From positions 1-37,929 of IMG/VR virus record IMGVR_UViG_3300034073_002127: a stretch of 37,929 nt of DNA, one strand, 5' to 3'. Below the pieces are notes generated by a model. It did not search any database and was not told the origin of the DNA. It worked only from the letters and a program-made list of their open reading frames with translations. Position numbers and translations under genes: made by a program. Origin of the DNA: a virus. This document shows positions 5,879 through 10,636 of the stretch, one piece after another (within the stretch, counting starts at the first letter, position 1; the number at the start of each line of letters is the position of its first letter).

Positions 5879-6253
5879 ATGGCTAAGAAACCAACTATTA
5901 AACAGCAAAGGGCATTGACAAATTTACTAGCAGATGGTGGCTCTAAGGCCTCTGCAATGATTAAAGCTGGTTATTCTCCAAGAACAGCAAGAGATCCAAG
6001 TAAATTATTTGATAGCCCGGTAATGAAACCAGTTATTGATAAACTGGCTCAGCAACTAGAAGATGAACGCCAAGAGGTTTTAGACCGAATGAAAGCTACT
6101 CGTAGCCGAGCAAAATATCGTGACCTAACTTATGCTTTGGATATAGTTACTAAGAATTATCAGCTAGTGACTGGTGGCAGAACAGAGAATGGGGGTATAG
6201 AAGAGTTGGCCACATCTATAAATAATTGGATTAAGAGTTCAAAAAATGACTGA
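5879..6253 (+). CDS. terS: Terminase small subunit-like protein
   Basis: A 124-residue protein directly before the large terminase and overlapping it by eight bases. Residues about 8-45 form a helix-turn-helix-like N-terminal domain with the pattern A-S-A-M-I-K-A-G-Y-S-P-R-T-A common in phage small terminases, followed by a charged helix (about 50-85) that could mediate oligomerisation. It should recognise packaging DNA and recruit the ATPase. Called from position, size and the AGYS HTH pattern. Confidence 0.8.
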   Translation: MAKKPTIKQQRALTNLLADGGSKASAMIKAGYSPRTARDPSKLFDSPVMKPVIDKLAQQLEDERQEVLDRMKATRSRAKYRDLTYALDIVTKNYQLVTGGRTENGGIEELATSINNWIKSSKND

Positions 6254-8612
6254 TGAACAAAGAAACATTTGTCTAAAATTATTAAGCCTATTTGAAATAG
6301 ACGGCAAAAAGGCTAGTGAAGTGGCTACTGATGGCCAGATAGAGATTTTCTTTGAGATAGTATTCCGGGTGCATCCGAGAGTAGAAATTCTAACTGCCAC
6401 TCAGTATGGTAAGAGTTTGTTTGTAGCTTTGGCTAGTATTATTGTGACCTGTATTCAAAAGGAAATGATCTCTGTGGTGGCCCCAACGAATGAAAAGGCG
6501 AAGATTATAATGCGTTACTTCATTGACCACTTAGGGGATAATATCCTATTTTACTCGCAATTAGAAAAAGACTCTAAACTTGACCGCTTGCGGATGGAGG
6601 AAAGCAAAGAGCGAATTAAACTAAAAAATGGCGGTGGTATCTTTGTGGTATCTGTTCAAGCTGGTAATTCTAAAAAGGGTATTGAATCAGCGATGGGTGC
6701 TGGTTCAAAAATAGTCGTGGAAGACGAAGCCGGATTGATTCCTGATAACATTGAGGCTACTGTTTTCCGTATGATTGCCGGTAAAGGAGCCGATGCTTTC
6801 TATTGCAAAATTGGTAATCCCTTTTATCGTAATCATTTTTTACGAAGCTGGCACGATGAAAAATATCATAAAGTTTTTATAGATTATGAACGAGGTTTGA
6901 AAGAAGGCCGTTATACGCAAGAATTTATTGATGAAGCTCGAACTAAACCATTCTTTGATGTGTTGTTTGAGTGTAAGTTTCCAAGTGCTGATGCGATTGA
7001 TACGTCAGGTTATTCTCCATTGATTGTGGAAGAAGTTTTGTTATCTAAAATTCGCAAAGAAGTAGAACTCTTTGGCCGAACATCCTTGTCTTGCGATGTA
7101 GCTGGTGAAGGTAGCAACCAAAGTGTAATTGTTTACCGTGGCCAGAATGGAGCGAAGATTATCTACAAAGAAAACAACCCGGACACAATGAACTTTGCCG
7201 GGGTGATTTTAAAGTTTGCACAAGAATTAAATCCAGATGTAATTTATATTGACAAGGTGGGAATCGGAAAACCAGTGTATGACCGCTTGAAAGAATATCA
7301 AGAGATAGAAACTATTGTCGTGGGTGTAATGGCTGGCGAAAGTGCTGATGATACTGAAAACTTCATAAATAAAAGGGCAGAAATGTTTTGGCGATTAAGG
7401 GAATGGCTGGCTACGGCTGAACTTGAAGGTAACGGTTGGATGGATTTACTCGATGTCCGCTATAAAATTCAGAGTGATAGGAAGGTTAAGATTAAAAGTA
7501 AAGATGAAATGTTGAAGGAGGGAGTGCAAAGCCCGGACTGTTTTGTGGCTGGAACAAATATATTAACTAGAAATGGTGAAGTAAACATAGAAAGTTTATC
7601 TGCTGGTGATAGTGTCATAACCCCTTATGGAGAACGGGAGATACTTAAAAAATGGGAAGTAGAAACTGATAAGCTAATCAAGGTATCTTTCTCTAACGGC
7701 ACAACCTTGACAGGTAAACCAAAACATAAAATACTAACAAAACGAGGCTTTATTCCGCTTGACGCATTACTATTGACTGATATAATAGAAACAAGGAACA
7801 TTTTTTCAAATATATTATGGAAACTAAAAAAGTTATTATTTATAAAGGACGTAAATATTGGCCTACGAAAGCAGGCAGATATTTTTATGCCGACATTTAT
7901 GACGGAAGAGGACAGCGGAAAAAAGAACCACTACATCACAGAGTTTGGCAAGATAATAACAAAGGCAAACAAATTCCTGATGGATATTCTATCCACCACA
8001 TTGATGGAAATACCTTTAACAATAACCCAAAGAATTTACAACTGGTTGAATCAACAAAGCACTCACGCCACCATATGCTGGAACGATTTGATGATAAGGA
8101 CTATAAGAAATCAAATGATAAGCAACTCGAGGCTATCCGTCCGCTTGCCTCTTTATGGCACAAATCCGATGAAGGTAGAAAATGGCACAGAGAACACGCA
8201 AGAAAACAATGGGATAATCCTAAGGTCATCACAGGAAAGTGTATTGAGTGTGGACGAGAATTTGAAGCATACTACAAGACAAAAAAATATTGCAGTAGAA
8301 AATGTGAACAAAAAACAATATGGAAAAATAAAGTGTATAACACTGATAAAAGAATTTGTTTGGTCTGTAAAAAAGAGTTTATGGCAAATCGGCATAGGCC
8401 TACAAGCTGTTGCAGTAGAAAGTGTGGAAGCCATTGGAGGTGGAAAAACAAAAGTATTTAATCTAACTCTTGATAGGGATAATGTTTATTATGCTAATGG
8501 TATTTTAGCGGAAAATTGTGCGGATGCTTTATCCCTAAGTTTTTATAAGCAGACTATCGGCACACCACAGATCAGTCAGTATCGTCCCAAGTGGGCATCA
8601 AAAAGAAAATAG
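6246..8612 (+). CDS. terL: Terminase large subunit interrupted by an intein
   Basis: The 788-codon frame is an extein of 462 residues, normal for TerL, plus a 326-residue intein (432-757). ATPase: Walker A-like TATQYGKS (50-57) and Walker B VVEDEAG (157-163). RNase-H-like nuclease: Asp284 in CDVAGEG, Asp336 in YIDKVG, and the third acidic motif SPD-CADAL. The intein sits exactly between SPD and CADAL and uses Cys758 as the +1 residue. Packaging therefore probably requires splicing to restore the nuclease site. The middle of the intein frame (about residues 520-720) looks like the unintended translation of the HNH gene nested in another frame (7817-8461), yet it contains no stop. Confidence 0.93.
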   Translation: MTDEQRNICLKLLSLFEIDGKKASEVATDGQIEIFFEIVFRVHPRVEILTATQYGKSLFVALASIIVTCIQKEMISVVAPTNEKAKIIMRYFIDHLGDNILFYSQLEKDSKLDRLRMEESKERIKLKNGGGIFVVSVQAGNSKKGIESAMGAGSKIVVEDEAGLIPDNIEATVFRMIAGKGADAFYCKIGNPFYRNHFLRSWHDEKYHKVFIDYERGLKEGRYTQEFIDEARTKPFFDVLFECKFPSADAIDTSGYSPLIVEEVLLSKIRKEVELFGRTSLSCDVAGEGSNQSVIVYRGQNGAKIIYKENNPDTMNFAGVILKFAQELNPDVIYIDKVGIGKPVYDRLKEYQEIETIVVGVMAGESADDTENFINKRAEMFWRLREWLATAELEGNGWMDLLDVRYKIQSDRKVKIKSKDEMLKEGVQSPDCFVAGTNILTRNGEVNIESLSAGDSVITPYGEREILKKWEVETDKLIKVSFSNGTTLTGKPKHKILTKRGFIPLDALLLTDIIETRNIFSNILWKLKKLLFIKDVNIGLRKQADIFMPTFMTEEDSGKKNHYITEFGKIITKANKFLMDILSTTLMEIPLTITQRIYNWLNQQSTHATICWNDLMIRTIRNQMISNSRLSVRLPLYGTNPMKVENGTENTQENNGIILRSSQESVLSVDENLKHTTRQKNIAVENVNKKQYGKIKCITLIKEFVWSVKKSLWQIGIGLQAVAVESVEAIGGGKTKVFNLTLDRDNVYYANGILAENCADALSLSFYKQTIGTPQISQYRPKWASKRK
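7759..7786 (+). promoter_or_regulatory. Promoter inside the intein, driving the nested HNH gene
   Basis: TTGACG (7759-7764), 16 bases, TATAAT (7781-7786). The predicted start (about 7793) lies some 24 bases before the HNH ATG at 7817. The same bases encode the end of intein block B. AT-rich DNA gives chance matches, but a near-consensus pair at this place is suggestive. Confidence 0.5.
7817..8461 (+). CDS. HNH endonuclease with two zinc fingers, nested out of frame in the terL intein
   Basis: A 214-residue complete protein in the frame one base back from terL. HNH domain: IHHIDGN (59-65), then NN-x2-NL (about 69-74) and HSRHH (82-86). The C-terminal part has two Cys4 fingers: C142/C145/C159/C163 and C181/C184/C199/C203. 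Both fingers are intact, so this is a functional-looking gene and not frame noise. The second finger overlaps the bases that encode intein block F, so about 60 bases (8402-8461) are dual coding. No Shine-Dalgarno is seen near the ATG, but a promoter-like pair lies at 7759-7786. Inferred role: homing nuclease cutting intein-less terL alleles. Confidence 0.9.
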   Translation: METKKVIIYKGRKYWPTKAGRYFYADIYDGRGQRKKEPLHHRVWQDNNKGKQIPDGYSIHHIDGNTFNNNPKNLQLVESTKHSRHHMLERFDDKDYKKSNDKQLEAIRPLASLWHKSDEGRKWHREHARKQWDNPKVITGKCIECGREFEAYYKTKKYCSRKCEQKTIWKNKVYNTDKRICLVCKKEFMANRHRPTSCCSRKCGSHWRWKNKSI

Positions 8613-8621
8613 TTTTCCACA
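8613..8621 (+). promoter_or_regulatory. DnaA-box-like site TTTTCCACA
   Basis: TTTTCCACA followed by G, immediately after the terL stop and upstream of the portal gene promoter region (weak TTGTTT/TATATT near 8639-8663). It is one of four such intergenic boxes (26211, 33670, 37056). Confidence 0.4.
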
Positions 8622-8707
8622 GTTTAAATTTGATTAGCTTGTTTTTTAAAAATATGTTATATTATTAGTAACAATGTGAGGAAGGCACATTAAAAACATA
8701 AAACAAA

Positions 8708-10636
8708 ATGTTAGCCTCACCTTACACAGATAATAAAGGAAAAATTATTTCACCTCTCTCCGCTTATCAGCCCTCTGATGCGGTCAAGCAAATTACCAGT
8801 GAAGTCCGTAGTGCGGTAGAAACTGGTGATGAGATATTACAAAGACAATTCCCCGAGTTTAATGATATGTCTTTGGTGCAAAGGATGAACGAAGACCAGA
8901 AAGCCTGGTTATCCTGGACTCCTTCCCCTTCTGACGACCCTGATTTTGAATGGCAATGGACTGGAGTTAGGCCAATTACCCGAAATAAGATCATTTCTAC
9001 CGCCGCTCATCTTACTTCTAGGGTGATTTATCCTAATATCATAGCCCAGAATGATGATGACGAGGAAGATAAAGACTCTGGCTATGTGATGAAAGAGCTT
9101 TTGGAATACAATATGGACCGTTCAAAGTATGATTTGACGTTCCTTTACTCTGTTATTTCAGGCCTTGTGAACCCCGTTTCCTATCTCAAAGTAGATTACT
9201 GCGAGGCCTATCAGGATATTTTAGAAGGCACCAGTTCAGAGTATACCCGAAAGAAAGTGCTTGATGATGTGCTATCAGGCTTTCAAAATAACTTATTGCC
9301 TACCGATGAAGTCTTACTCACCAACCCTTATGTTTTTGATTGGCAGAAGCAACCAGAAATAATGCACCGCCGAAGAATCTCTTATGACGAAGCAGAAGGC
9401 TTACACGGCACCAGTGAAAATTGGCAACACGTTCACGTAGGTAAAATTGCTGTCCCCGGCTCTGATGGAATGTTTTATGATGTGGATGACACGATCGGTG
9501 ATGGTTTGCTAGAAGAAATTACTTATTACAACCGCCGTGGTGACAAGGAGTGTGTCCACGTCAATGGTATTTATGTGTCTAATCCCAATACCGAATACAA
9601 TCCGATTAAGCATAGAGATAATAAAAATAAGCCAAAGTATAACATTGTAAAATTCGGTGCGGAGCCAATAGACAATATGCGCTTCTGGGCCTTCAAATCC
9701 TTGGCCGCTAAACTCTCAAACGATCAAGAACTCGCTGATAGAATGTGGCAGACCGCTATCGATGCCTCACAAATTGAAGCCTACAAGCCGATTGTGACTG
9801 TTGGTGCTGGTGCTATGGACCGTTCAGTAGTTGTCCCTTCATCCGTTACAGACTTACCAAAAGATGCTTCTATTCACCCATTATCTGGCTTGTCTAATCC
9901 AAACGCCGCTTTCAATGCTCTTTCACAAGTAGAAAAATCAATGTCTGAAACTTCTGTTGATCCGCTATTATCTGGTATTCAAGAAGGCCCACAAAAGACC
10001 AAAGGCGAAGTGGATTATTTACAGCAAAATGCCAATACTAATCTAGGCGTGATGTATATAATGCTTGCTAATATGGTGTCCGAAACTGGTGAGCTGATGC
10101 TTGATAATATATTACGCTATCAAACAGTCGGTGAAGTAGATCAAATTTTAGGTGGTGTGCCGAGAATGAAATATCGCTCATTTATGTTACAGAACAAAGT
10201 TAAGAACGGTCGAATGGTATCTGAACAAATCAAATTTACTGATGCTTATGCGGGCATAGAAATGACCGAAGATGAGAAAATGACTGAACAATTAAGATTA
10301 GCTACCAAGGCCGGAGAAGATAAAGAGATTCATTTGGTGAACCCTGCTATCTTTGCTAATCGTAAATTTTTAGTCAAAGTGACTGCTGAAATGGCTACCC
10401 CACGAACCGAAGCGTTTGAAGCTAGATATAAACTAGGAGTTTATGACCGAGCAATAGCAAACCCTTATGTAGACCAAATTGGAATTACTAGGGATTTCTT
10501 ACTAGAACCACTAGTCAAGGGTGAAGCTACCAAATATATGAGACAGGATGCCGAGAAATCATTAGCCGGACTTATTCCGGGGCAGGAAGGTGTCAAACCC
10601 ACGCCCACAAATAAGACGAAGGTCGAGCAAATTTAA
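8708..10636 (+). CDS. Portal protein
   Basis: A 642-residue protein right after the terminase, the expected place for the head-tail connector through which DNA is packaged. It has the acidic, helix-rich character of large portals. Trp-rich N-terminal segments (about 65-90) precede a long central alpha/beta region, then a stretch of long helices (about 440-500: EVDYLQQ..., the probable stem/crown) and a basic, proline-rich tail. The size suits podovirus-type portals (about 500-720). A GAGGAAGG sequence lies about 24 bases before the ATG, too far for a normal ribosome site. Call rests on position, size and general pattern. Confidence 0.8.
   Translation: MLASPYTDNKGKIISPLSAYQPSDAVKQITSEVRSAVETGDEILQRQFPEFNDMSLVQRMNEDQKAWLSWTPSPSDDPDFEWQWTGVRPITRNKIISTAAHLTSRVIYPNIIAQNDDDEEDKDSGYVMKELLEYNMDRSKYDLTFLYSVISGLVNPVSYLKVDYCEAYQDILEGTSSEYTRKKVLDDVLSGFQNNLLPTDEVLLTNPYVFDWQKQPEIMHRRRISYDEAEGLHGTSENWQHVHVGKIAVPGSDGMFYDVDDTIGDGLLEEITYYNRRGDKECVHVNGIYVSNPNTEYNPIKHRDNKNKPKYNIVKFGAEPIDNMRFWAFKSLAAKLSNDQELADRMWQTAIDASQIEAYKPIVTVGAGAMDRSVVVPSSVTDLPKDASIHPLSGLSNPNAAFNALSQVEKSMSETSVDPLLSGIQEGPQKTKGEVDYLQQNANTNLGVMYIMLANMVSETGELMLDNILRYQTVGEVDQILGGVPRMKYRSFMLQNKVKNGRMVSEQIKFTDAYAGIEMTEDEKMTEQLRLATKAGEDKEIHLVNPAIFANRKFLVKVTAEMATPRTEAFEARYKLGVYDRAIANPYVDQIGITRDFLLEPLVKGEATKYMRQDAEKSLAGLIPGQEGVKPTPTNKTKVEQI

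Follow-up and report, generated by a model that had tools for sequence, protein, structure and literature searches.

The window analysed here is a stretch of 37,929 nucleotides of viral DNA (positions 1 to 37,929 of IMG/VR virus record IMGVR_UViG_3300034073_002127). Its terL gene, which encodes the large subunit of the terminase, contains an intein, and inside this intein a complete HNH endonuclease gene is encoded in a different reading frame. We consider it very probable that the two together form a mobile element that uses two frames: the intein would remove itself from TerL by splicing, and an independently expressed HNH nuclease would drive homing. The computed evidence consists of the two reading frames themselves, a host frame that selection keeps open, the preservation of both the splicing and the HNH residues, promoter and Shine-Dalgarno signals, a shared target gene, and the recurrence of the arrangement in other genomes.

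The terL gene is a single open frame on the plus strand (6246 to 8612) with a product of 788 amino acids. Residues 432 to 757 of this product are an intein of 326 amino acids (7539 to 8516), which runs from Cys1 to Asn326 and is followed by Cys+1. This confirms the claim of a first-pass annotation, made from the letters of the window alone, that the terL frame stays open through an intein bounded by these residues. In the host frame the intein matched the Pfam domain Hint_2 with an E value of 2.9e-9, and a match to the Intein_splicing domain was found below the cut-off. The N-extein (6246 to 7538), comprising the ATPase domain and most of the nuclease domain, is an open frame matching phrog_2, terminase large subunit (1.7e-19), and the C-extein (CADALSLSF..., 31 amino acids plus stop, 8517 to 8612) could be aligned to intein-less TerL of C72C1, vir555, and a P22-like phage. 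The comparison with intein-less homologues that the first-pass annotation had proposed revealed an empty site: excision of the intein would join SPD-C-ADAL, in agreement with SPD-x-ADA in the intein-less TerL of phage C72C1, vir555, and L002, and the equivalent in intein-less TerL of a P22-like phage is SPN-R-ADA. The TerL proteins of BP10 and Highwayman (Obolenskvirus) are only 25% identical, too distant for an informative alignment of the empty site. The insertion point is thus the conserved SPD:xADA motif of the TerL nuclease domain, where the intein lies in frame and for which intein-less alleles are known. This motif holds a catalytic Asp.

In the structure predicted for the intein in the terL frame with AlphaFold2 (AF2), both ends form a Hint fold, with a predicted local distance difference test score (pLDDT) above 90 over residues 1 to 80 and 301 to 326. 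Residues 100 to 290, which lie over the HNH gene, were mostly predicted with low confidence. The N-terminal part of the Hint domain (residues 1 to 90, 7539 to 7808) reached pLDDT values of 88 to 98, and the C-terminal part with blocks F and G (8406 to 8516) is supported by the Pfam match and the AF2 model. The nearest solved relative of the Hint domain is the gp41-1 split intein, both by PDB profile (1.6e-22) and as top Foldseek match (8.9e-6). The family-invariant splicing residues C1, H63, and N326 are present in the window intein, as is C+1. When such residues were sought close to the ends of the profiles, at most a few positions away, Cys1, a terminal Asn, and Cys, Ser, or Thr at position +1 were found in 177 of 177 nested inteins with mapped ends.

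The second frame reported by the first-pass annotation, a complete HNH gene with two intact Cys4 fingers, was likewise verified. It extends on the plus strand from the ATG at 7817 to the TAA at 8461, is read in the host minus 1 frame, and encodes a protein of 214 amino acids that matched HNH_3 of Pfam (6.1e-10) and the HNH endonuclease family phrog_15471 (3.7e-29) and was predicted by AF2 with a mean pLDDT of 95. The HNH catalytic motif (HH-x-D...NN...N...H, 7931 to 8068) and the DNA-binding modules are intact, since all invariant H/H/D/N/N/N/H and Cys4 columns are present; the latter form a first zinc finger (C142-C145-C159-C163, 8240 to 8305) and a second one (C181-C184-C198 or C199-C203, 8357 to 8425). 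Unlike in the usual endonuclease-bearing intein, the endonuclease is out of frame with the intein, which holds for the window as for every one of the 178 dereplicated nested loci described below. A sequencing frameshift that had displaced an originally in-frame HNH domain, which the first-pass annotation had named as evidence against its reading, was rejected, because both intein ends share one frame and the pattern recurs in the isolate genomes of TJE1, Highwayman, and LS06-2018-MD07. Relatives with stops in the nested frame alongside an intact terL, the other observation it had named, were not found. In the window (7800 to 8519) or in relatives, the host frame on top of the HNH gene or next to it matches three PHROG families (phrog_30251, phrog_35162, and phrog_28563), so that HNH genes translated out of frame may account for some catalogued families whose function is unknown.

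With the HNH protein as tblastn query, we identified this arrangement also in Tetrasphaera phage TJE1, Acinetobacter phage Highwayman, Rhodobacteraceae phage LS06-2018-MD07, and one gut contig, and a different one in Vibrio phages 1.238.A and 1.245.O. Relatives were then gathered by HNH-alignment scans of IMG/VR and of prokaryote genomes, which yielded 249 dereplicated loci that were classified with intein-end profiles. In 144 loci, including the window, the HNH gene is nested in a single open terL frame that equals the HNH frame plus 1 (termed HNH+1), and in 34 further loci this open terL frame equals the HNH frame plus 2 (termed HNH+2). About 25 loci are split, that is, the N and C parts of the intein are on separate frames and the HNH gene lies between the halves or overlaps them, and at 41 loci no intein was found. 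Not one of the 249 loci had the HNH domain in the intein frame. These 178 nested relatives, with two frames in use, answer the question raised in the first-pass annotation of whether other inteins carry out-of-frame HNH genes and support its notion of a compact selfish unit with splicing and nuclease functions in separate frames. Within the nested inteins the HNH gene starts a median of 266 nucleotides (nt) from the intein start and stops a median of 55 nt before the intein end, which corresponds to the usual endonuclease slot.

Searches with the C-terminal end of the intein alone gave 43 and 44 full-length inteins of the family, all of which carried a nested HNH gene (43/43 and 44/44), always in the HNH+1 frame; none without an HNH frame was present in these samples, which represent the best 80 matches of each scan and lean to near relatives of the query. 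In the Vibrio phages 1.238.A and 1.245.O (L009 and L010; 212-3085) the split intein overlapped by the HNH gene is not the only one: the N-terminal part of terL has another, in frame and apparently of the ordinary kind, behind the P-loop (GGAK...). In three other loci (L020:1140-4847, L022:1203-4784, and L086:509-3835) the terL frames comprise 1236, 1194, and 1109 codons, respectively, suggesting a further intein in the ATPase part.

The first-pass annotation had remarked that the intein frame over the HNH gene is free of stops although it reads like unintended protein. We shuffled synonymous codons inside each HNH gene and counted the stops in the other frames. As a result, 361 host-frame stops were expected in the 144 HNH+1 loci and 333 in the 34 HNH+2 loci, but none was observed in either class, whereas the unused frame contained 2619 stops versus 2762 expected (HNH+1) and 381 versus 342 expected (HNH+2). 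In free-standing and in split relatives, stops in the HNH+1 frame were as frequent as expected (297 versus 281 and 204 versus 202, respectively). For the HNH gene of the window alone, 2.6 host-frame stops were expected on average and none was seen (P ~0.012). The single-frame label itself demands an open frame; loci with an interrupted frame and detectable intein ends would nevertheless show, and they are the minority split class. An A directly after the start ATG, which would create a TGA in the host frame, was present in none of 135 HNH+1 nested genes versus 12 of 33 free-standing genes, and internal ATG codons were half as frequent in the HNH+1 class as in free-standing genes. The open host frame therefore goes beyond chance and is actively maintained by selection.

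We tested for constraint on the product of the host frame over the full length of the HNH gene and found none: at positions with the same HNH residue, codon identity in the middle of HNH+1 genes was 0.411 versus 0.395 expected, which is no different from free-standing genes (0.411 versus 0.400). At the 3′ end the situation differed, as codon identity in the last 8 codons was weakly raised in HNH+1 loci (0.37 versus 0.30) and strongly in HNH+2 loci (0.76 versus 0.35). The analysis of codon positions across relatives, also proposed in the first-pass annotation, showed that differences between paired relatives concentrate at third positions of HNH codons (48%, versus 29% and 23% at the other two). 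From these three results it follows that, across most of the HNH gene, the host frame serves as a filler loop that merely has to stay open, and that true dual coding is confined to the end, in the window to positions 8406 to 8461. Because the middle of the host frame is unconstrained, searches with the whole intein in that frame retrieved few matches. The earlier claim that both products constrain the same DNA thus holds near the 3′ end, strongly in HNH+2 and weakly in HNH+1 loci including the window, but not along the rest, where the host frame is merely free of stops. Similarly, the claimed overlap of about 60 bases between the last zinc finger and block F is correct if the C-terminal Hint part is taken to start at the strand of residues 290 to 298 in the AF2 model, so that the HNH C terminus and this first strand share 56 bases (8406 to 8461); with block F in the strict sense, the overlap shrinks to about 8 bases.

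Upstream of the HNH gene, inside the intein coding sequence, we found a predicted sigma-70-like promoter on the plus strand (TTGACG-16 nt-TATAAT with a TG extension, 7759 to 7786) that agrees with the consensus at 11 of 12 positions and ends 30 nt before the HNH start codon. With a promoter matrix written from general knowledge of sigma-70 sites, it was the top match in the 4 kb scanned and scored better than synonymous recodings of the same Hint segment (P = 0.005). By the same comparison, 50 to 52% of 143 HNH+1 loci reached P ≤ 0.05, compared to 2%, 5%, and 8% in three stretches of terL that served as controls and 13% where the intein begins; among HNH+2 loci the proportion was 29 to 35%, with terL controls at 0%. 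Shine-Dalgarno sites of at least 5 nt preceded 35% of the HNH+1 starts, which equals the proportion in free-standing genes and compares to 2 to 9% in controls. The −10 elements fell into two groups, located either exactly at −12 (20 loci), for which a nearly leaderless message is predicted, or at about −25 to −45, and Shine-Dalgarno sites were more common in the latter (67% versus 35%, P = 0.003). In loci of the N2 class such as L107, L109, L110, L111, L119, and L120, which lack a Shine-Dalgarno site, the near-identical stretch CTGATACGCTGCGTTAC directly precedes the HNH start; it may be an extended −10 element, which it fits, or another conserved element. Four free-standing family members (L017, L045, L088, and L290) are located on the strand opposite to terL, and their expression therefore cannot depend on the terL transcript.

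Among the well-matched family members without an intein, 26 of 27 adjoin an intein-less terL, mostly at a distance of 22 to 66 nt and at times on the opposite strand. In a FastTree phylogeny the classes were clustered yet intermixed, with 29 changes in all versus a mean of 87 after shuffling, and the HNH+2 class required 4. A single origin of the nested state was not supported, as at least 10 changes of the HNH+1 label were forced by the starred branches of this tree, with the caveat of long branches. HNH distances correlated with Hint distances (r = 0.50; partial r = 0.34 given TerL, P = 0.002) and also with TerL distances (partial r = 0.42). The simplest account is that a free-standing nuclease targeting terL near the site was captured more than once, in different frames, by an intein at the same site. 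Some lineages may then have lost the open frame and become split inteins; the direction of each step is what we infer.

According to the proposed mechanism, a composite mobile element would occupy the essential terL gene. The terL frame would encode a Hint domain that removes itself from TerL after translation, and the endonuclease slot between blocks B and F would be filled by a complete HNH homing-endonuclease gene in another frame. A ribosome in the terL frame would pass the HNH region as a filler loop, in which selection need only purge stop codons. Expression of the HNH protein would be separate, driven by an internal promoter of the sigma-70 type and beginning at a start codon of its own, with initiation presumably aided by a Shine-Dalgarno site in many relatives and in others by a −10 element placed for a leaderless mRNA. 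The protein most likely cuts intein-less terL near SPD:xADA, and repair would then copy intein and HNH gene together; the indications of such cutting and transfer are indirect, namely the location of the family near terL and its co-variation with the Hint domain.

Several points weigh against this picture. Splicing of TerL, the cleavage specificity, and homing are steps that we infer. At three assisting positions the window intein departs from the family, with Lys in place of the block B Thr60, Asn in place of the block F His, and Glu in place of the penultimate His, and its splicing may therefore be weak. The HNH start of the window lacks a good Shine-Dalgarno site, and the HNH+2 class has no such sites at the chosen starts. 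Finally, the loci are related to each other, so that counts summed across them, those of stops included, are not independent.

Alternatively, the HNH protein might aid the terminase as a DNA-packaging nuclease, a role proposed for HK97 gp74, and packaging rather than homing might then account for its location within or next to terL. All nested hosts examined and nearly all free-standing members are indeed located in or adjoin terL, and the HNH nuclease encoded upstream of the HK97 terminase acts with the terminase in cos cleavage in vitro (PMC10448857). However, a homing nuclease targeting terL would occupy the same place, intein-less terL relatives exist that have no HNH gene there, the HNH gene shifts between frames and between sides of terL, including the opposite strand in the four loci mentioned above, and it tracks the intein beyond the relatedness of terL. 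We therefore regard a packaging role as unlikely. It is still less probable that the nested gene is a decaying passenger of a working intein, with an open frame whose protein is no longer made. The weak Shine-Dalgarno site at the window HNH start would fit such decay, but the catalytic and zinc-binding residues are all intact, the differences between pairs are concentrated at HNH third positions, promoter and Shine-Dalgarno signals are kept, and the C-end searches, within their best 80 matches, returned no full-length family intein that had lost the HNH gene.

The prevalence of the host −1 frame, used by the HNH gene at 144 of the 178 nested loci, could be explained if the nuclease were produced by programmed −1 frameshifting as a TerL-HintN-HNH fusion instead of by independent initiation. 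This explanation is very improbable, since the other frame is used at 34 loci, few loci have a slippery heptamer ahead of the HNH gene (5 of 144; 0.0034 per codon versus 0.0020 in terL), the HNH frame remains open for only a short distance upstream (median, 12 nt), and the HNH starts carry promoters and Shine-Dalgarno sites of their own. Group I introns of phages commonly harbour HNH genes, and the insert might accordingly be an RNA intron with an open terL frame by accident. Hint motifs and the Hint fold at both ends of the insert, the lack of any Rfam match over positions 6200 to 8800 even at E = 1, and the absence of stops where 361 were expected, although an intron needs no open frame, make this idea almost negligible. 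The two-frame mobile element remains the best reading of the locus.

In textbook inteins splicing and endonuclease functions are joined in one polypeptide, and here they are separated. A gene of about 600 bases can overlie the intein loop at little cost beyond the avoidance of stop codons. Standard annotation misses such genes: the GenBank records of the three isolate phages TJE1, Highwayman, and LS06-2018-MD07 (L006, L007, and L008) show terL as one gene, with the nested HNH gene unannotated. On balance, we think that these loci represent a large undescribed class of phage inteins in which the homing endonuclease is kept as a separate, overlapping gene that has a promoter of its own and is often transcribed into a leaderless message. 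Members of one and the same HNH family stand alone next to terL, lie nested in one or the other alternative frame, or separate the halves of split inteins, and the family may thus display steps in the capture of free-standing endonucleases by inteins and in the origin of split inteins and fractured genes. The co-occurrence of these forms makes the origin of endonuclease-bearing and of split inteins testable. For intein engineering, the family offers splicing domains related to the fast gp41-1 split intein that appear to tolerate long unrelated loops. Text searches of the literature turned up no earlier description of an intein that carries an endonuclease gene out of frame; a 2025 preprint on non-canonical actinobacteriophage inteins may overlap with our results.

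Individual properties of the element are known from other systems. The only solved relative of the HNH protein by profile (2.7e-4) is the intron-encoded I-HmuI (PDB 1u3e), which was also the top fold match; both matches are weak, and the likeness concerns the HNH core only. In fractured genes, reportedly described by Dassa et al. in 2009, split inteins such as gp41-1 and NrdJ-1 have an endonuclease gene between their halves. About 25 relatives with the same HNH family are arranged in this way, whereas the window and 177 other loci encode one continuous intein polypeptide that the endonuclease gene overlaps and does not interrupt. Inteins with in-frame endonucleases, for example those of mycobacteriophage TerL (PMC5050341), share with the window intein the Hint domain, the position of the endonuclease between blocks B and F, and an essential gene as target, but their endonuclease is a domain of the intein polypeptide and not a separate protein from another frame. 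Moreover, those TerL inteins of mycobacteriophages that have been studied to date are inserted in the ATPase domain (PMC5050341), whereas the window intein lies in the nuclease domain. Free-standing HNH endonucleases beside their target gene, with collaborative homing together with a nearby intron, have been described in T7-like phages and a cyanophage (PMC10448857). The free-standing members of our family with their short distance to intein-less terL resemble these, but in this family the HNH gene has additionally moved, out of frame, into the intein. The nearest precedent is the ShiLan domain, with the Pacc40 insertion, a hidden out-of-frame HNH in a phage gene, a DNA methylase, that lacks a splicing domain (Arsenault, Gosselin and Gogarten 2025, PMC11855218). 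Its authors conclude that the insert stays in the host protein; they left the translation of the HNH open and proposed leaderless initiation (PMC11855218). As in ShiLan, the HNH gene of the window is out of frame in an insertion that is open in the host frame. In contrast to ShiLan, this insertion lies in terL and constitutes a complete Hint intein, the family makes use of two alternative frames, and a predicted internal promoter was detected; promoter and start codon inside the host gene offer a concrete answer to the question about hidden HNH genes left open in 2025.
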